Assembly (NCBI GenBank): GCA_022828125.1
Contig: JAJEJD010000016.1
Coordinates: 62,001-126,000 of the forward strand
Length of the DNA: 64,000 bases
Direction: 5' to 3'
DNA from: a bacterium
Lineage (GTDB): Bacteria > UBA8248
A program made the position numbers and the translations under genes. Each line of letters begins with the position of its first letter. Position 1 is the stretch's first letter. The notes beneath the pieces were generated by a model. That model saw only the letters and a list, made by a program, of their open reading frames with translations, had not been told where the DNA came from and ran no database searches. Shown piece by piece: positions 18,387-28,314 of the stretch.

Positions 18387-19415
18387 ATGATTCGCGACGA
18401 CGTATTCGTCTTCGACAACGTGGTGCACATGTACGACTACTCGGACGAGAACCTCGTCTCGGAGCAAAGCGAATACGACCGCCACTACCACGTGAGCAAG
18501 GTGCTCGGCAGAAGGCGGACGGCGCCCACGGACGTCTACGCGAACTGGCACCCGGTGGAGGGCTTCAAGCGCCGCTGGACCGTCGAGGACATGGGCCGCC
18601 TCGTCTTCGAGGATTCGGGCACCGACATGGCGATGGCCCAGGCCGTGCCCCTGTTCGATCTCTACAAGGACGGCTTCGCGCCCGTGAAGGCGCAATACAC
18701 CTTCGCCCAGGCCTATCCCGAGCGCTGCCTGTTCTGCGGGGCCGTGGACCCCATGTACCCGAGCGTGGCCGCCGCGTGCGAGGAGATGGAGCGCCAGGTG
18801 AAGGAGTGGGGGGCCAAATCCATCAAAATCTACAACGCCCACGTGGACGGAAAATCCTGGGCGTGCGACGACCCCGAAATCGCCTACCCCCTCTATGAGA
18901 AAGGGCGCGAACTGGGTATCGAGGTATTCCAGTTCCACAAGGGAAACCCCATCACGAGGGCGAAGCTGCGCGATCTCTCACCGCTCGACATCGAGGGCGC
19001 GGCGCTCGATTTTCCCGATCTGCTCTTCGGCGTCCACCACCTGGCGGTGCCCTATTTCGAGGAAGTCGTCTGGATGGCGAACCGCTATGAGAACGTGTTC
19101 CTCGTGCTCTCGGGCATCGGCCACACGCCGATGATCGCGCCCAGAACCTTCACCGAATGGATGGGCAGATTGTTGCGCGACGTGGGTTCGGAGAGGGTTC
19201 TCTGGGGTTCGGAGATGGCGCTCCTCGGAAACGCGAAGCCCGTGATTGAGTGGATATGGGATATGGAAATCCCCGAATCCATGCAGGACGACTACGGCTA
19301 TCCACAGATCACGGAAGAGGACAAGCGCAACATCCTGGGTCTCAACCAGGCGCGCATCTTCGGCGTGGACGTGGAGGCCAAGAAACGAGAACTCTGGAAC
19401 GGAGCGGCGCGATGA
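18387..19415 (+). CDS. Amidohydrolase-2 (ACMSD-like) family metalloenzyme
   Basis: This 342-residue TIM-barrel protein is related to the amidohydrolase-2 family, which includes decarboxylases and hydrolases that act on cyclic acids. Visible features are VFDNVVHMYDYSDEN near the N-terminus (the usual H-x-H is not obvious), KSIKIYNAHVDGKSW, EVFQFHKGNP, and WGSEMALLGNAKP near the C-terminus. ATG 18387 is preferred because it follows AGGAG at the right distance. Its stop overlaps the next start (ATGA). It opens a cluster with a NifU-like protein, two carriers and a selenoprotein. Substrate unknown. Confidence 0.75.
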   Translation: MIRDDVFVFDNVVHMYDYSDENLVSEQSEYDRHYHVSKVLGRRRTAPTDVYANWHPVEGFKRRWTVEDMGRLVFEDSGTDMAMAQAVPLFDLYKDGFAPVKAQYTFAQAYPERCLFCGAVDPMYPSVAAACEEMERQVKEWGAKSIKIYNAHVDGKSWACDDPEIAYPLYEKGRELGIEVFQFHKGNPITRAKLRDLSPLDIEGAALDFPDLLFGVHHLAVPYFEEVVWMANRYENVFLVLSGIGHTPMIAPRTFTEWMGRLLRDVGSERVLWGSEMALLGNAKPVIEWIWDMEIPESMQDDYGYPQITEEDKRNILGLNQARIFGVDVEAKKRELWNGAAR

Positions 19416-19750
19416 ACGAGCACGAAGCCCTCATCACCGACGTCGAGGACATCATCGAGACGCAGATCCGCCCGCTGCTCAAGATTCACGGCGGGGGCAT
19501 CACGCTCGAGGGCGTGAGCGAGAAAGGCGAAGTATCGCTTCGCTTCGAGGGCGCGTGCCGGGGCTGCATGCTCAAGAGCGTCACTTACGCCCTGGGCGTG
19601 CGGCAGAAGCTCATGCAGCACCCCGGCGTCACGGACGTCGCCGTCGAGGGTGTGCGCATCTCCGATCACGCCATCAAACGGGTGGAGAAATTCTACTCCG
19701 GCTATTCGTTTTGGGTGGGGCATCCGCTCAAAGACCAGTCATCGACTTGA
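19412..19750 (+). CDS. NifU-like C-terminal domain protein
   Basis: This 112-residue protein is a stand-alone NifU C-terminal (NFU) domain with the Fe-S-binding pair in GACRGCMLKS (Cys49 and Cys52) preceded by IHGGGITLEGV. NFU proteins receive or transfer [4Fe-4S] clusters. It overlaps the preceding amidohydrolase by 4 bp (ATGA), and its own stop overlaps the likely TTG start of the next gene. The tight coupling suggests a cluster-specific maturation or scaffold role, but that is inference. The C-terminal 30 residues (ISDHAIKRVEKFYSGYSFWV) lie outside the usual domain. Confidence 0.82.
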   Translation: MNEHEALITDVEDIIETQIRPLLKIHGGGITLEGVSEKGEVSLRFEGACRGCMLKSVTYALGVRQKLMQHPGVTDVAVEGVRISDHAIKRVEKFYSGYSFWVGHPLKDQSST

Positions 19751-21036
19751 TCGCATCGCGCTACCAGACACGAAAAGAACTGCGCTTGTGGTACGGCTGG
19801 GTGATTCTCCTCAGCGTCTTCATCATCATGACGGTGGTCATCGGCATCAGGAACTCCATCGGCGTCTTCTTCAAGGAGATCTCCGGCGAGTTCGGCTGGA
19901 ACCGCGCGCAGACGGCCGGCGCCTTCACCATGGGCATGCTCGGCCAGGGGCTGGTGGCTCCTTTCGCGGGATGGGTGCTCGAGCGCTTCAACATGCGCTG
20001 GGTGATCGGGGCGGGCATTCTCGTGAACGGCGCGGCCCTCATCATCGGGGCCTACATCGGCGCGCTCTGGCATTTTTACGCTATGTATTTCCTGCTCTCG
20101 CTCGGCTTCGCCTTCACGGCCAACCTGCCCCAGGTGCAACTGCTCGCCAACTGGTTCGTCTTAAAGCGCGGGCTCGCGATGGGGTTTTCGCACGCCGCCC
20201 AGGGCTTCGCGCCCATCGTGAACATCTTCACCCCCCTGCTCATCGCGGCCTTCGGCTGGCGGGGGAGCTACCTCGCGCTGGCGGGGGTCGTGCTCCTCTT
20301 CGTGCTGCCCTTCTCCGTAGCGCTGCTGCGCGAGCACCCCAGAGAGAAACGCACCGCTCCCGACGCGCCCTTTCTCACTTCCGAGGAATTCTCCCGCGCG
20401 CGCGCCAGAAGCGCCGTTATTATCCCCCTGGATAAGGAGAAAGAGACCGCCTCGTTCTCTTTTTTCTTCACCCGCAGGTTCATGCTGATCGGCGGCATCT
20501 ACGGCAGCATCGCCTACATCTTCACCGCCGTCCTGGTGCACCTGATCCCCCACGCGACGGACCAGGGCTTCTCCCCCTCGGGGGGTGCTGCGCTCTTCGC
20601 CCTCTACGGGGCGGCCCTCGTCGCGGGAAACGGGCTGAGCGCGGTATCGGATCGCATCGGGAGGCTCCCCACCTTCATGGTGGGGGTGGTGTGCGGCGTG
20701 GCCGCGTGCTATCTCCTGGCCGCCTTCACCAGCGCGTCGGCCGAGTGGCGGATATACGCGGGCGCGATGGGGGTGGGCTTCGCTTTGGGATTCGTCCGGC
20801 CTACGGCGTCCTCTCTTCTGGCGGATCACTTCGCGGGGCCGGGCTTCGGCCTCGTGAACGGATGCGCGATGATGGTCTTCTCCATCATGGGCGCTTTAGG
20901 TCCCCTCGCGACGGGAATGCTCTTCGACGCGAGCGGCAACTACTACGCGGGTTTCCTCCTCGTGGGCTGCATGTTCCCCGCGGGCGCGGTTTTCGTGGCG
21001 AGCCTCTCGCGCATGCCGCGCGAAGAGCGCGGCTAG
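19747..21036 (+). CDS. MFS transporter (OxlT/monocarboxylate-like), first of tandem pair
   Basis: This 429-residue, 12-helix MFS protein begins RLWYGWVILLSVFIIMTVVIG and has FFKEISGEFGWNRAQTAGAF, the helix 1-2 segment typical of oxalate/monocarboxylate-type carriers, and RPTASSLLADHFAGPGFG near the C-terminus. The start is most likely the TTG at 19747, which overlaps the preceding TGA; no ATG lies close by. It is paralogous to the next gene and separated from it by 4 bp. The two may carry related small organic acids. Substrate unknown. Confidence 0.85.
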   Translation: MIASRYQTRKELRLWYGWVILLSVFIIMTVVIGIRNSIGVFFKEISGEFGWNRAQTAGAFTMGMLGQGLVAPFAGWVLERFNMRWVIGAGILVNGAALIIGAYIGALWHFYAMYFLLSLGFAFTANLPQVQLLANWFVLKRGLAMGFSHAAQGFAPIVNIFTPLLIAAFGWRGSYLALAGVVLLFVLPFSVALLREHPREKRTAPDAPFLTSEEFSRARARSAVIIPLDKEKETASFSFFFTRRFMLIGGIYGSIAYIFTAVLVHLIPHATDQGFSPSGGAALFALYGAALVAGNGLSAVSDRIGRLPTFMVGVVCGVAACYLLAAFTSASAEWRIYAGAMGVGFALGFVRPTASSLLADHFAGPGFGLVNGCAMMVFSIMGALGPLATGMLFDASGNYYAGFLLVGCMFPAGAVFVASLSRMPREERG

Positions 21037-21040
21037 GACC

Positions 21041-22309
21041 ATGAACGTCATGCGGGACGATTCGCGCCTCTGGTACGGCTGGGTGGTTCTGGGCGTGGTC
21101 TTCATCGTCATGATCACCCTCATCGCCTTCCGGGCCACCATCGGGCCCTTCTTCAAGGAAATCTCGGGCGAGTTGGGCTGGAGCCGGGGTGCGACGGCGG
21201 CGGCTTTTTCCATCGGCATGCTGGCCCAGGCGCTCGTCTCGCCGCTGGCGGGCATCTTTTCCGACCGCTGGAGCATCCGGGCGTCGATGGCAGCGGGCGT
21301 TCTGGTGTTCGGCCTCTCCCTGCTCATCGGGAGCTGGATCACCTCGCTCTGGCATTTTTATCTGATGTACATCGGCCTGTGCGCGGGCTTCGCCGCGAGC
21401 ACGTGGATCGCCCAGGTGCCCACGCTCTCGAACTGGTTCGTGAAAAAAAGAGGCCTCGCCCTGGGCATTTCCAACACCTGCCAGGGAGGGGCCTTCTGCC
21501 TGAACATCGCCACCCCCTACCTCATCGCGGCCCTGGGCTGGCGGATGAGCTACCTGGCGCTTGCGGGCGTGACGCTGCTCGTCGTGCTTCCCGTCTGCAT
21601 CATTTTCCACAGGGACCACCCTTCCGAGAAAGGCACCATCGCCGACGCCCCCTTCGTCCAGAACTTGCCAGATGAAGGCGCGCCGAAACCGGCGCCCCCG
21701 TCCGCCGACGGGCCGCCGGTCTCCATGTACAACCTGCCGTTTTTCTTCTTCCTGGGCTCGTTCCTGCCCATGGCCTACGCCTTCGCGGGCATGCTCGTGC
21801 ATCTGGTGCCTCACGCCACCGACCAGGGCTTCTCGCTCCAGACAGCGAGCGTGCTGTTCGCCATCTGGGGGCTTTGCCAGGTGGCGGCGAACCTCGTCAG
21901 CCCGGTCTCGGACCGGCTGGGCCGCGTGCCGACCTACCTCATCGGCAACGCGCTCGGAATCGCCTCCGCCTTCATTCTCGCCACCTACGAGAAGGGAGAC
22001 CCGGAGATCCGCTTCTACGTCGGCACGATAACCAACGGTCTGGCCCTGGGCCTCATACGGCCCACCGGCTCGGCCATCCTGGCGGATTATTTCGAAGGCC
22101 CCGGCTTCGGGCGCGTGAACGGGGTGGCGATGATGGCGTTCGCCCTCTGGGGCGCGGCGGGGCCGTGGACCACGGGCTTCCTCTTCGACCTGCACGGCTC
22201 CTATCTGTGGGGCTTGTCGGCCTTCGCGCTCATGTTCTTTCTCTGCGGTCTTTTCGCCGTGTTGCTCGGCTGGACGAAAAGAGATAAGAGAGGAGCGTCT
22301 CCCGCCTGA
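21041..22309 (+). CDS. MFS transporter (OxlT/monocarboxylate-like), second of tandem pair
   Basis: This 422-residue, 12-helix MFS carrier parallels its upstream neighbour through its length: RLWYGWVVLGVVFIVMITL at the start, FFKEISGELGWSRGATAAAF in the first loop, and RPTGSAILADYFEGPGFGRV near the end. The two came from a tandem duplication and have since diverged. The start is the ATG at 21041, 4 bp after the previous stop. A selenoprotein gene follows after 11 bp. The pair may import the substrate handled by the cluster's enzymes, which is inference. Confidence 0.88.
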   Translation: MNVMRDDSRLWYGWVVLGVVFIVMITLIAFRATIGPFFKEISGELGWSRGATAAAFSIGMLAQALVSPLAGIFSDRWSIRASMAAGVLVFGLSLLIGSWITSLWHFYLMYIGLCAGFAASTWIAQVPTLSNWFVKKRGLALGISNTCQGGAFCLNIATPYLIAALGWRMSYLALAGVTLLVVLPVCIIFHRDHPSEKGTIADAPFVQNLPDEGAPKPAPPSADGPPVSMYNLPFFFFLGSFLPMAYAFAGMLVHLVPHATDQGFSLQTASVLFAIWGLCQVAANLVSPVSDRLGRVPTYLIGNALGIASAFILATYEKGDPEIRFYVGTITNGLALGLIRPTGSAILADYFEGPGFGRVNGVAMMAFALWGAAGPWTTGFLFDLHGSYLWGLSAFALMFFLCGLFAVLLGWTKRDKRGASPA

Positions 22310-22320
22310 ATCATGGAACC

Positions 22321-23244
22321 ATGAATTCGAGGATGAGCATGCCGATCGAAAGAGTCGACGGATTCTATTTTCACCCCACCTCGCGCGAGCGCGTCCTGGC
22401 GCAGCGCCACGCCGACCCGGCCAAAACGCCGTGGACGCTGATGGCGAAACCGCTCGCGGAGTGCAAGGTCACCCTCGTCTCCACGGCCGGCATCTTCATG
22501 AAGGACGACGTTTCATTCGATTACGAGCGGGAGCGCCGCGAGGGCACCTGGGGCGACCCCACCCACCGGGAGATCCCCAAGTCAGCGGGCCAGGACGACG
22601 TGGCGTATTCCCACCTGCACGTCGACACCTCGTTCATGGCCGAGGACAGGAACGTGGCCTGGCCGGTCGACATCTTCCTCGATTTCGAGAGGGAGGGGAA
22701 AATCGGCGCGCTGGCCGATACGCTCTACTCCATCATGGGCTACATCCCGAACTTCAACCCGCTCGTGAAGCGCACGGCGCCCCTGATGATCGAGAAGATG
22801 AAGGCGGAAGGCGTGGACGCGGCCTTCCTCTATCCCGTCTGACCGCTCTGCAACCGGTCCGGCGGACTGCTTCAGCGCGAAATCGAAAAGGCAGGCATCG
22901 CCACCGTCATCATCTCCAACGTGCCCGAGACGACCGAGCGCGTCTGCGTGCCGAGAGCGGTGTTCGTCCAGTATCCCTTCGGGCGGCAGTTGGGCCTCGT
23001 GGGAGACTACGCGGGCCAGCGAAAGATTTGCGAGGACATGGCCGCGCTGCTCGATGAGGCGCAAGCGCCCAACGCCTACAGGCATCTGCCGTATGAGTGG
23101 CCCGAGCCGCCCGAGACCACCAAATGGCGCCCCGACGTTCCGCCGCCCATCTTCTCCGTCCGGCAGGGACAAGAGGGCGGGCACAATCTGCTGGATGACT
23201 TCAAGGACGAGGAGCGCGCCGCGTATTCCGACGCCGAGCGTTAG
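22321..23244 (+). CDS. GrdB-like reductase selenoprotein with in-frame UGA at the active site
   Basis: Reading through the TGA at 22840-22842 as selenocysteine gives 307 residues in one frame. Residue 174 becomes Sec in FLYPV-U-PLCNRSGG, a U-x-x-C redox motif at the place where glycine/sarcosine/betaine-reductase selenoprotein B relatives carry Sec. The conserved family segments continue on both sides: before it, HLHVDTSF...WPVDIFLDFEREGKIG and SIMGYIPNF; after it, LLQREIEKAGIATV and VQYPFGRQLG. The downstream part has no start codon or ribosome site of its own that fits. It closes the amidohydrolase-NifU-MFS-MFS cluster. The family link is strong; the substrate is unknown. Confidence 0.85.
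22855..22869 (+). promoter_or_regulatory. Candidate bacterial SECIS hairpin
   Basis: Twelve nucleotides after the UGA (22840-22842), CGGTCC (22855-22860) pairs with GGACTG (22864-22869), including one G-U pair, around a GGC loop. The loop guanines lie about 19-20 nt downstream of the UGA, as in known bacterial SECIS elements read by SelB. Folding was done by eye. Confidence 0.45.
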
Positions 23245-23291: not shown

Positions 23292-23543
23292 GGGGTTGTT
23301 GAATAAGCCCGAGGAGAGAGGAATCACTCCCCCCTTGAGGGGGAGTCGAAGAGCTGAGGGCGTAAGCCCGAAAGCGATTCGGTGGGGGGTATAATCCGGA
23401 GTGGCGATAAAACACATTTTACCCCCCACCGATTCAGCCTTCGCACAAACCGCTCGGCTTCATCGACTCCCCCTCAAGGGGGGAGTGAACTTCAAGAACA
23501 TGCGCTCAACCAAAATCGCTCCACGGGACTTTTTCAACAACCC
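23292..23543. repeat. MITE-like palindromic element, copy 1
   Basis: About 250 bp bounded by inverted ends: GGGGTTGTTGAATAAG (23292-23307) and CTTTTTCAACAACCC (23529-23543). Inside is a long imperfect palindrome: ACTCCCCCCTTGAGGGGGAG, then GATTCGGTGGGGGGTATAA, answered on the other side by TTTTACCCCCCACCGATTCA and GACTCCCCCTCAAGGGGGGA. TTTATAA/TATAAA flanks both ends. It fills the gap between two converging genes and has no coding capacity. A related copy lies at 53536-53922. Confidence 0.75.
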
Positions 23544-25025: not shown

Positions 25026-25790
25026 TCAGGTGGCCTGCCCCGACGCCTGTACGGCTTCTTCGAGCTGCTCGGGCGTCAGGGGGTCGCCCACGCCGATCAT
25101 TGAATCGCGCGTCACGAGCTGGAAGAGCTGCGCTTCCGTCCAGTCCTCTGTTCCCGCCGGACGCTGGGGGATGATGAGATAGCGGCAATCCGCGTTCGAG
25201 TCGATGACGATGAGCTCCACGTCGTCGGGCGCATCGAAGCCCATGTCCTTAAGAGTGCCCCTCGGGTCCGTCACGGCTTTCGAGCGATAGGGGAAACTCT
25301 TGTACCAGGTGGGGGGCTGCCCGAGGATTTGCCTCGGGTAGCACGAACACAGCGTGCACACCACCATGTAGCGGGTCGTGTCGGTATTTTCGAGCGCCAC
25401 CACGCGGTTGATGCCCGTGGTGTCGACGCCCATCTCGCCGCAGGCGGCGTCCGCATCCGCCAGGAGCCTTTCCTTGAAGCCCTCATCCACCCAGGCGCGC
25501 GCGATGATGCGCGAACCGATAGCCGGGCTCTGGCCGTAGATCTCCTCCACCGCGCGCCGCATCTCGTCCGTCGTGAGAAGGCCCTTCTCGCGGAGGACGT
25601 TCATCAGCGCCATCATGCGCACCTGGTAGTAGTCCAGATCGTGCTCGACCTGCTTCACGGCCCCCTCGCGGTAGGCGTCGTCGGACTGCATCCGCGCGTT
25701 GTGGGCCGAGGGGTCCTGACTGTAGGTGTGGGGATGATCGCCGTGGTGGTGAACATGTCCGCCGTTGTGATGATCGTGTGAGTGCGCCAT
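25026..25790 (-). CDS. Nitrile hydratase alpha / thiocyanate hydrolase gamma-like subunit, cobalt type
   Basis: This 254-residue protein has the metal-claw motif CTLCSC (Cys145, Cys148, Ser149, Cys150), with the Thr that marks cobalt-type enzymes, in VVCTLCSCYPRQILGQPPTWYKS. NHase hydrates nitriles to amides; SCNase converts thiocyanate to carbonyl sulfide. The N-terminus is a histidine-rich stretch (MAHSHDHHNGGHVHHHGDH) that could bind or store cobalt. The start is the ATG at 25790, 6 nt after GAGGAG. It follows a short beta-C-like gene by 38 bp. A gene for the beta N-terminal half is absent here, so activity and partner are open questions. Confidence 0.88.
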   Translation of the reverse strand: MAHSHDHHNGGHVHHHGDHPHTYSQDPSAHNARMQSDDAYREGAVKQVEHDLDYYQVRMMALMNVLREKGLLTTDEMRRAVEEIYGQSPAIGSRIIARAWVDEGFKERLLADADAACGEMGVDTTGINRVVALENTDTTRYMVVCTLCSCYPRQILGQPPTWYKSFPYRSKAVTDPRGTLKDMGFDAPDDVELIVIDSNADCRYLIIPQRPAGTEDWTEAQLFQLVTRDSMIGVGDPLTPEQLEEAVQASGQAT

Positions 25791-25828
25791 GGTGTGCTCC
25801 TCGCTCACGTGGGAGCCGGTGGATTCGC

Positions 25829-26116
25829 CTAGACCGGCTCCAGCCAATGCTCATAAATCTCGATATAGAGTTTGTCCTGTTTTTTCCCCGCCTCGTGGTC
25901 CCAGAGATCGTTGATGTCGAACTCCACCCAGTAGAGTTCCCGGAGCGGCAGGCCGTCGCCGCCGTAGGCGAGATTCTCGGGGTTCTTGTATTTGCCGAAA
26001 TAGCGGTTGACGACGCCCGTCTTCCCCTTCACGAAATACGTCGTCCGGTGGTGGCCGTCGGGGTACATCTCCTTGATGCGCACCCTGTCGCCCACGCGGA
26101 AGGTGGTTTCCTCCAT
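25829..26116 (-). CDS. Nitrile hydratase beta C-terminal-domain-like small subunit
   Basis: This 95-residue protein aligns with only the SH3-like C-terminal half of nitrile hydratase beta: FRVGDRVRIKEMYPDGHHR, then TYFVKGKTGVVNRYFG and YWVEFDINDLWDHEAG. Thiocyanate hydrolase and toyocamycin nitrile hydratase split beta into two proteins, but there both halves are encoded together. Here the N-terminal half is missing; the upstream neighbour is an amidohydrolase. The ATG at 26116 follows GGGGAAG. It is the first gene of a two-gene unit with its own promoter (26168-26195) and terminator (24972-25004). Confidence 0.85.
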   Translation of the reverse strand: MEETTFRVGDRVRIKEMYPDGHHRTTYFVKGKTGVVNRYFGKYKNPENLAYGGDGLPLRELYWVEFDINDLWDHEAGKKQDKLYIEIYEHWLEPV

Positions 26117-26167
26117 CGGAACTTCCCCTTTGCAGTTGAACCGGCTCGAACTGGAATACTTACCTGA

Positions 26168-26195
26168 ATTTTACACCCAGAAGGCTCTTTGTCCA
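26168..26195 (-). promoter_or_regulatory. Sigma70-type promoter for the nitrile-hydratase-like unit
   Basis: On the minus strand TGGACA (26195-26190) and TAAAAT (26173-26168) are 16 bp apart, each five of six to consensus. It lies in the 83-bp gap after the amidohydrolase stop at 26200, so the pair at 26116-25026 can be transcribed separately. Confidence 0.5.
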
Positions 26196-26199
26196 GCCC

Positions 26200-27216
26200 C
26201 TATACCGCAAGCCCGTACATGCGCCTGGCGTTGGTCGTGAGAATCATCTCCTGCTCCGCTTCCGGGAGGCGGCTCAGGCCCGGGATGTCCCGCGCGGGCT
26301 GGTGATAGCCCATGTCCGCCGGATAGTCCGTGCCGTAGAGAATCCGCTCCGCCCCCAGCGTCTTCGCCGCGAACTCGAAGCAGTCCGCGTTGTGGATGAT
26401 CGTGTCGTAATAGAAGCGGCCGAAATACTGCTCGGGGTCCTTCGCACCGTGCACCTTGGGCTCCCTGCGCTCGCCGTAGCCGTGCTGCCAGCGGCCTCTG
26501 ATCCAGGGCACGAAGCCGCCCACGTGGGAGAGATAGAACCGAAGCCCCGGGAACCTGTCCATCACGCCGCCGAATATCAAGCACGCCACCGCGACCGTGG
26601 TGTCGAGCGGGTTGCCGATGAAGTTCCTCAGGTAGAAATCCTTTAAGCGGTCGTCCCCGCCCAGCACGTTCGTGGGGTGCACGAACACGGGCACGTCGAG
26701 CGCCTGGGCCTTCGCCCAGAATACGTCCAGACCGGGATCGTCCAGGTTCTTCCCCGCAACGTTCGAGGCGATCATCACGCCGAGGTGGCCGTTCGCGCAC
26801 GCGCGTTCGAGTTCCGCTGCCGCGGCTTCCGGATCTTGGAGGGGAACGGTGGCCATGCAGGAGAACTTGTCGGGATACTCCTTCGCCAGCGCCGTGAGGC
26901 CGTCGTTCAGCGATGCGGCCAGTTCCCTGTTCGCCTCCGCCTCCAATGTATAGAGCGTCATGGCGGGGCCGATGGAGAGCACTTGATGCGCGACGCCCAT
27001 CCGCTCCATGTCGGCGAAGCGGGGTTCCAACTCATAGTAAAGAGGCGTGAGCTTGTTCCTGAGTTCCGAGTCGCGCCCCAGAACCTTGCCCCGCGTGATG
27101 AGCCACTCGCCGTGCTCGTCGGCCTCTATCGACGCGGTGCGTCCGAAGCGGCTTGCGCGCACGTCCTCGATGAACTGCCCGGGATAGATATGGGTGTGGG
27201 GATCGATCGCCGCCAT
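26200..27216 (-). CDS. Amidohydrolase-2 family (ACMSD-like), tandem paralogue 2
   Basis: This 338-residue protein has the metal-binding start IDPHTHIYPGQFIEDVRAS, VPVFVHPTN, YLSHVGGFVPWIRGRWQHGY and YGTDYPADMG, the motif set of aminocarboxymuconate-semialdehyde decarboxylase relatives. Such zinc enzymes decarboxylate or hydrolyse ring-derived acids in the cytoplasm. It has the same length as the next upstream gene (27298-28314) and is closely related to it along the whole chain. Substrate unknown. The 81-bp gap between them holds no clear terminator. Confidence 0.82.
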   Translation of the reverse strand: MAAIDPHTHIYPGQFIEDVRASRFGRTASIEADEHGEWLITRGKVLGRDSELRNKLTPLYYELEPRFADMERMGVAHQVLSIGPAMTLYTLEAEANRELAASLNDGLTALAKEYPDKFSCMATVPLQDPEAAAAELERACANGHLGVMIASNVAGKNLDDPGLDVFWAKAQALDVPVFVHPTNVLGGDDRLKDFYLRNFIGNPLDTTVAVACLIFGGVMDRFPGLRFYLSHVGGFVPWIRGRWQHGYGERREPKVHGAKDPEQYFGRFYYDTIIHNADCFEFAAKTLGAERILYGTDYPADMGYHQPARDIPGLSRLPEAEQEMILTTNARRMYGLAV

Positions 27217-27297
27217 CTTCTTCTCTTATAGATAAGGGGAAGAGGCCCTCCCGGGCCCCCTCGCCGAAACTATCGAGCGTTTCGTTGTCGAAGCCTT

Positions 27298-28314
27298 CTA
27301 CACGTCCAGCTTGTAGAGCTTCTTCACGTTCCCGTAGAGCATCTGTTCCTGCTCTTCCGCCGAGAAGCGCGAAAGGCCGGGAATCTCCTTCGCCCCGGCC
27401 AGATAGCCCATGTCGAAGGGATAGTCCGTGCCGTAGAGAATCCTGTCCACGCCGAGCGTTTTCACGGCGAACTCGAACGAATCCGCGTTGTGGATGATGG
27501 TGTCGTAATAAATCTTGCCGAAATACTGTTCGGGGTCCTTCGCGCCGTGCACCTTGGGCTCCCTGCGCTCGCCGTAGCCGTGCTGCCAGCGGCCCCGTAT
27601 CCAGGGGGTGAAGCCGCCCACGTGCGAGACCAGGAACTTGATGTTCGGGAAGCGGTCGAACACGCCGCCGAAGATGAGGCACGCGATGGATATCGTCGTG
27701 TCGAGCGGGTTGCCGATGAAGTTTCTCAGGTAATAGTCCTTGAGCCTGTCGTTGACGCCCATGACGTCCACCGGGTGAATGAATATCGGCACGTCGTGCT
27801 CGCACGCCTTCGCCCAGACGACGTCGAGCGCGGGGTCGTCGAGGTTCTTCCCCGCGACGTTCGAGCCGATCTGGCAGCCCAGGTGGCCGTTTTTCACCGC
27901 GCGGTCGAGTTCGGCCGCCGCGGCTTCGGGGTCCTGGAGCGGAATCTGCGCCATGCACAGGAAGCGGTCGGAGTGTTCTTTCGTGAGCGCGGTGAGCGCG
28001 TCGTTCAGCGATGCGGAAAGCTCCCTGTTGAGCCCTGCGTCGAGCGCATAGTGCGTCATGGGCGGAACGACGGAGAGAATCTGCACGTCCACGTTCTGGT
28101 TGTTCGCCATGTCGCTCAGGCGCATCTCGACGTCATAGGTTTCCTTCGGCAGCGGGTTCTTATGAATCCGCTCCTCGCCGAGCACGGTGTTTTTCGTAAC
28201 GAGCAGTTCCCACGGGTCGCCCGCTTCGATGGTGACGGCGTCGCCGAAACGGCCCTGGCGTACGTCTTCGATGAAACTCTCGGGAGCGATGTGGGCATGG
28301 GGGTCGATGATCAC
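27298..28314 (-). CDS. Amidohydrolase-2 family (ACMSD-like), tandem paralogue 1
   Basis: This 338-residue enzyme starts with a GTG (MIIDPHAHIAPESFIEDV) after AAGGAGAAG. It has VPIFIHPVDVMGVNDRLKDY, FLVSHVGGFTPWIRGRWQHG and YGTDYPFDMG. Together with the preceding paralogue it forms a tandem duplication. Members of this family need a Zn2+ ion held by H-x-H, a later His and the Asp of GTD, all present here. Reaction and substrate are not known. The 130-bp gap upstream contains a GC hairpin but no T-run. Confidence 0.82.
   Translation of the reverse strand: MIIDPHAHIAPESFIEDVRQGRFGDAVTIEAGDPWELLVTKNTVLGEERIHKNPLPKETYDVEMRLSDMANNQNVDVQILSVVPPMTHYALDAGLNRELSASLNDALTALTKEHSDRFLCMAQIPLQDPEAAAAELDRAVKNGHLGCQIGSNVAGKNLDDPALDVVWAKACEHDVPIFIHPVDVMGVNDRLKDYYLRNFIGNPLDTTISIACLIFGGVFDRFPNIKFLVSHVGGFTPWIRGRWQHGYGERREPKVHGAKDPEQYFGKIYYDTIIHNADSFEFAVKTLGVDRILYGTDYPFDMGYLAGAKEIPGLSRFSAEEQEQMLYGNVKKLYKLDV

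Follow-up and report, generated by a model that had tools for sequence, protein, structure and literature searches.

A PrdB/GrdB-family selenoprotein encoded across an in-frame UGA in a bacterium of the phylum UBA8248, and its possible function

A PrdB/GrdB-family gene from a bacterium of UBA8248, a name that denotes a GTDB phylum (PMC10839748), codes for a selenoprotein, and the single TGA at 22840-22842 in its frame is a selenocysteine codon. Coordinates refer to the window, i.e., the whole 64-kb stretch of DNA analysed here, which corresponds to positions 62001-126000 of contig C5 in a 3.9 Mb genome that is 97% complete. It is almost certain that SelB decodes UGA 22840 as selenocysteine with the aid of the hairpin at 22855-22869 (Table 1). 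With regard to function, the reading given slightly better than even chances is that the product is a partnerless Sec/Cys reductase that would cleave a carbon-heteroatom bond of a small imported acid, its selenocysteine being inserted with the help of this hairpin.

Table 1. Features of the selenoprotein gene and its upstream run in the window, and MDMPI_N/SCP2 genes upstream of type A genes at other loci
Feature	Position	Strand	Basis
Amidohydro_2 metal-dependent hydrolase, first gene of the run	18387..19415	+	PF04909; synteny
NifU-domain protein, same packed run	19412..19750	+	PF01106
Second MFS transporter of the run	19747..21036	+	PF07690; synteny
MFS transporter, 11 nt upstream of the selenoprotein frame	21041..22309	+	PF07690; lactate/oxalate-formate types nearest, under all cut-offs; synteny
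Probable Shine-Dalgarno GAGG for start 22339	22329..22332	+	kept in five congeners
PrdB/GrdB-family selenoprotein gene	22339..23244	+	301 aa, Sec168; TIGR04483 124.7 bits, PF07355 37 bits
In-frame UGA, Sec codon, first residue of U-P-L-C	22840..22842	+	TGA in 32/32 copies; Sec machinery
Resolving Cys codon of U-x-x-C	22849..22851	+	invariant alignment column
SECIS-like hairpin CGGUCC-GGC-GGACUG	22855..22869	+	comparison, bSECIS model, fdhF GG position
MDMPI_N/SCP2 gene	L040:9028-9876
MDMPI_N/SCP2 gene	L077:5157-5984
MDMPI_N/SCP2 gene	L078:7979-8809
MDMPI_N/SCP2 gene	L081:7454-8281
MDMPI_N/SCP2 gene	L083:10186-11013

The open frame 22321-23244 is interrupted by one TGA, at which standard translation halts, and the codons TGA CCG CTC TGC spell U-P-L-C, a U-x-x-C motif. 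On either side of the TGA, the translated piece separately matches the TIGR04483 profile (71.8 bits before and 38.2 bits after it; 124.7 bits for the joined protein), and the second match restarts 3 residues past the TGA, before GTG 22921, where translation in that frame could restart at the earliest. The long open frame as such was discarded as weak evidence for recoding: at 63% GC, 20 of the 1743 TGAs in the window have equally long open frames on both sides, so that frame length says little, and homology and conservation decide. The aligned codon is TGA in all 32 distinct copies read (this gene and 31 others) and Cys in none. Matches were found in each of the 18 genomes of the phylum sampled (all from one family), usually several per genome; only two of them lack a stop, both being partial matches that stop short of the aligned codon. 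In a distant relative from Roseomonas, Cys occupies the position. The dN/dS values against five congeners are 0.09-0.14 before the TGA and 0.08-0.13 after it; judged by these ratios, purifying selection is as strong downstream of the codon as upstream of it. The genome further encodes the complete selenocysteine machinery, with selA (575.9 bits), selB (384.5 bits), tRNA-Sec (selC, 75.9 bits) and selD (334.9 bits) all above the cut-offs and located together on contig C30. The UGA would be a true stop if the gene were a pseudogene, contained a sequencing error or comprised two separate genes; the end of standard translation at this codon and the unexceptional stability of the hairpin as a single sequence agree with that explanation, which is nevertheless extremely improbable, and was rejected, given that 32 distinct copies, drawn from many species, retain TGA, that purifying selection is equal on both sides and that the machinery is complete. 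Thus, the original prediction of a selenoprotein with family-conserved sequence on both sides of a UGA at a U-x-x-C site is borne out, as are its expectations that the sel genes would be present in the genome and that homologues would carry Sec or Cys at this position, which all relatives read do.

The same prediction placed the start at ATG 22321, which yields 307 aa and Sec174, and in this respect has to be corrected. In four of five related species (L018-L021), 22321 does not correspond to an initiation codon, whereas at the position of 22339 all five keep ATG or GTG behind GAGG, so that, on this comparison, ATG 22339 is most likely the start and the selenocysteine is residue 168. The numbers given below for conserved residues (H98, D109, N111) follow the 307-aa frame from 22321.

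Several other observations concern selenocysteine use in this genome. The selD gene (C30:4116-5078), for selenophosphate synthetase, scores above the cut-off with one in-frame TGA and probably encodes a selenoprotein as well. Eight matches to the UGSC family, a large set, each with one in-frame TGA, are scattered over the genome (C19:200904, C5:172199, C14:9790, C19:73423, C29:42253, C23:109624, C31:1891 and C11:29153). UGSC selenoproteins were considered as direct partners of the product and rejected, as none is encoded adjacent to the gene in its own genome; UGSC genes lie near type C paralogues and only one gene of type A, the type to which the gene belongs (L081, L088, L090), and this proximity is no more than a lead. 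No tRNA was found in the 64-kb window.

The hairpin begins 12 nt downstream of the TGA, as originally predicted, and its stem is formed by 22855-22860 paired with 22864-22869 around the loop GGC (22861-22863). Counted from the U of the UGA, the GG of the loop occupies +22/+23, the same position as in Escherichia coli fdhF (NC_000913.3). The bSECIS model describes a loop of 3-9 nt that has G at its first two positions, a stem of 4-16 bp, a distance of 16-37 nt from the UGA and a minimum free energy of -7.5 kcal/mol or lower (PMC13188914); here, all values are within these limits, the loop having 3 nt (GGC) and the stem 6 bp, with a distance of 18 nt and an energy of -15.8 kcal/mol. The proposed folding test had a mixed outcome: taken alone, the sequence does not exceed its shuffles in stability (z = 0.58), so that support for the hairpin rests on comparison, in which it is conserved. 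Among 25 gap-free sequences, 92% of stem cells are paired compared to 86.7% in shuffles, and the covariation score was reached by none of 500 shuffles, although kinship among the sequences inflates such scores. The strongest synonymous-codon conservation of the gene begins 2-3 codons past the UGA. The Arg codon in the stem is CGG in 24 of the 25 type A sequences; the exception, L061, has AGG, matched by a synonymous CTG to CTT change on the opposite side of the stem, and the L036-type subclade has two mismatches in the stem. The alignment thus shows synonymous sites of the hairpin to be conserved, and some of the changes in it to be compensatory.

The designation "GrdB-like" holds in part. The product exceeds the gathering cut-off of PF07355 (GRDB; 37 bits against 22), but no equivalog cut-off is reached: it scores 124.7 bits against 300 for PrdB (TIGR04483), and 49.7 and 54.7 bits against 602.2 and 65.45 for GrdB (TIGR01917 and TIGR01918, respectively). 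At 307 aa in the frame from 22321, it is shorter than full-length GrdB (about 435 aa). Although it aligns with the C-terminal half of GrdB, GrdF and GrdH, with the selenocysteine at the same place, the N-terminal half (the first 200 or so residues) is absent, and the scores stay at 60 bits or less, unlike the separate full-length GrdB/F-like protein of the same genome, which scores 410 bits. With PrdB, a component of D-proline reductase, the protein shares the length class, the Pfam family, the place of the UxxC motif and the best match among profiles of known families, at about 33% identity to clostridial PrdB; in the tree, however, the 25 type A proteins form one clade (support 100/100) set apart from clostridial PrdB by a long branch, the exact position being unsure because of long branches. 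By profile scores and tree, the protein is nearer to PrdB than to GrdB and belongs to a clade of its own. Its genome has four such genes with one TGA each: this one, paralogues on C19 (66%) and C17 (41%), and a gene on C15 for the full-length GrdB/F-like protein. As many as eight matches to the wider family were counted in a single genome. There is also a longer PrdB-like type of selenoprotein (about 428 aa, with a C-terminal extension of about 190 aa; L088:7331-8614 and L090:8571-9851), encoded near genes for a UGSC selenoprotein, a CoA-transferase and an FAA-hydrolase.

The gene differs from the proline reductase systems in its surroundings as well. In Terrisporobacter and Ligilactobacillus, prdB adjoins prdA, whereas here there is no adjacent prdA, nor a PrdA-type gene elsewhere: the only PF09338 gene (GrdE/GrdG/PrdA-type subunits) of the genome lies away from the selenoprotein gene, inside a grd cluster on contig C15. 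Also unlike the PrdB system, the genome has a haem-copper aerobic oxidase (COX1). Across the phylum, PF09338 is present in 15 of the 18 genomes and was not found in G003 (96% complete) and G011 (95% complete), each of which at such completeness may merely miss a contig bearing it; both carry type A genes with selenocysteine, and the G011 gene groups with the subclade of the window gene with moderate support (87/82). Because the gene has no PF09338 gene of its own and these two genomes lack the family yet keep the selenocysteine genes, type A proteins probably act without a PrdA/GrdE-type pyruvoyl subunit, as far as gene content can tell.

The C15 cluster (L039:9565-14157) consists of grdA with selenocysteine (CFVU), a grdG-like gene, a grdB/F-like gene with selenocysteine in a UxxG context, and grdC; no GrdD above the cut-off was found in the genome. 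Thus, the statement in the original prediction that GrdA and GrdC partners are lacking is valid within the window but not for the genome, where GrdA (with its own TGA) and GrdC are encoded on C15, and GrdE/A/C/D genes do not accompany the selenoprotein gene, those of the A, C and E types surrounding another gene on C15. These genes allow for an arrangement in which the product serves the glycine-reductase-type system as an interchangeable subunit for a substrate, borrowing the single GrdG-like subunit and handing its product to GrdA and GrdC, and many bacteria feed several B complexes into one reductase (PMC10838667). This arrangement is improbable considering that two genomes with 95-96% completeness have the protein without any PF09338 gene, that the protein lacks the N-terminal 200 or so residues of GrdB, and that the gene is on a different contig from the grd cluster, with GrdD not found above the cut-off.

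The gene is the last of a tight co-directional run (Amidohydro_2, NifU domain, MFS, MFS, selenoprotein), in which 4 nt overlaps are followed by gaps of 4 and 11 nt (the latter to the first ATG), and this run is kept in the other species of the genus examined. Both MFS proteins are similar, with scores under the cut-offs, to carriers of lactate and of oxalate/formate. The link with MFS transporters is confined to this genus; elsewhere, the gene follows an MDMPI_N/SCP2, Zn-dehydrogenase or cyclase gene. In other genera of the subclade of the window gene, the upstream gene codes for a Zn-dehydrogenase/quinone reductase (L025, L026, L079, L082) or for a cyclase (L022, L080). The deepest branch (L061/L078, with a gap of 8 nt), G011 (L081) and the group of the C19 paralogue, four genera overall, have an MDMPI_N/SCP2 gene as the immediate upstream neighbour in the same orientation, so the distribution makes MDMPI_N/SCP2 plus selenoprotein look like the ancestral arrangement. 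In L040 and L078, hydantoinase/oxoprolinase-like and SDR genes are found near this pair. Two further features of the window lie downstream of the gene. Directly after it (23293-23543), there are nested inverted repeats with arms of 18, 29 and 20 nt (89-97% complementary) that resemble a small non-autonomous mobile element, and 25026-28314 encodes nitrile-hydratase-type alpha and beta-C subunits together with two Amidohydro_2 genes, a group conserved in the genus. A phage origin was dismissed, being represented by a single weak match only.

A related case is FarB/FarE of Cloacibacillus, where, by the description in the paper, a GrdB-family selenocysteine protein is likewise encoded in a run with an oxalate/formate-type MFS transporter (PMC10838667). 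For Grd-type proteins with such an operon gene, cleavage of the C-F bond of fluoroacetate has been proposed, with a GrdE homologue that, as proposed, makes no pyruvoyl group (PMC10838667). The difference is that FarB acts with the GrdE homologue FarE, whereas the gene described here has no adjacent partner.

Residues kept across 30 homologues include the selenocysteine, the cysteine of U-x-x-C, H98, D109 and N111. In the AlphaFold model, which is confident (pLDDT 85), the selenocysteine is located just before a helix that follows a strand. Searches of PDB sequences, with the single sequence and with a profile, identified no relative, and a Foldseek search of the model against the PDB returned nothing with E under 0.05; as solved structures resembling the model were not found, no fold inference or active-site comparison is offered. 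By analogy with the attack-and-resolve mechanism proposed for PrdB (PMC3091704), the selenolate would attack a small organic acid at an activated carbon, cleaving a carbon-heteroatom bond; the cysteine three residues on would resolve the selenoether to an Se-S bond, and a cellular dithiol of the thioredoxin type would reduce that bond. In this genus, import of the substrate would probably fall to either of the two MFS transporters in the run.

The UxxC motif is a general redox motif, and the genome has the aerobic oxidase COX1 along with many selenoproteins, such as the UGSC proteins; in addition, the title of a paper cited in PMC3091704 refers to a peroxidase activity of GrdB. These points leave a minor chance that the product works in thiol redox chemistry or as a peroxidase, using UxxC in the manner of thioredoxins or peroxiredoxins, and handles oxidants instead of reducing organic substrates. 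The invariance of many polar residues besides UxxC, the profile matches to amino-acid reductases, and the neighbouring hydrolases and organic-acid-type transporters argue against this. A broader version of the reductase reading, put forward tentatively and considered possible but not probable, is that of a partnerless PrdB-type clade in aerobic respirers that, with no pyruvoyl subunit, would cleave carbon-heteroatom bonds of imported acids or thiol adducts and whose ancestral pairing was with MDMPI_N/SCP2; under that broader version, MDMPI_N/SCP2 would be a low-molecular-weight-thiol type enzyme.

The family itself is already known and has been reported as abundant in sea water: UxxC selenoproteins labelled "PrdB" account for 42 sequences in the Sargasso Sea survey of 2005 (PMC1088965) and 235 sequences in the GOS survey of 2008 (PMC2398784). 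These marine proteins are likened to the present one by family label and UxxC motif only, and the surveys carried the proline-reductase name over. What is new are genomes that lack the partner family and the conserved pairing with MDMPI_N, neither of which was found in the literature searches made here; the papers searched included none on selenoproteins together with the name Nitrospinae. A proline-reductase function inherited by the clade is doubtful because the supposed catalytic partner is absent, an aerobic oxidase is present, and selenocysteine occurs in every copy read. PrdB-like UxxC proteins are among the commoner selenoproteins of sea-water metagenomes, under a name inherited from anaerobic proline fermenters. 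If the broader version of the reductase reading is true, the clade would carry out a reaction type so far unassigned to the PrdB-like family. Concrete leads on its function are provided by the pairing with MDMPI_N and by the MFS run.
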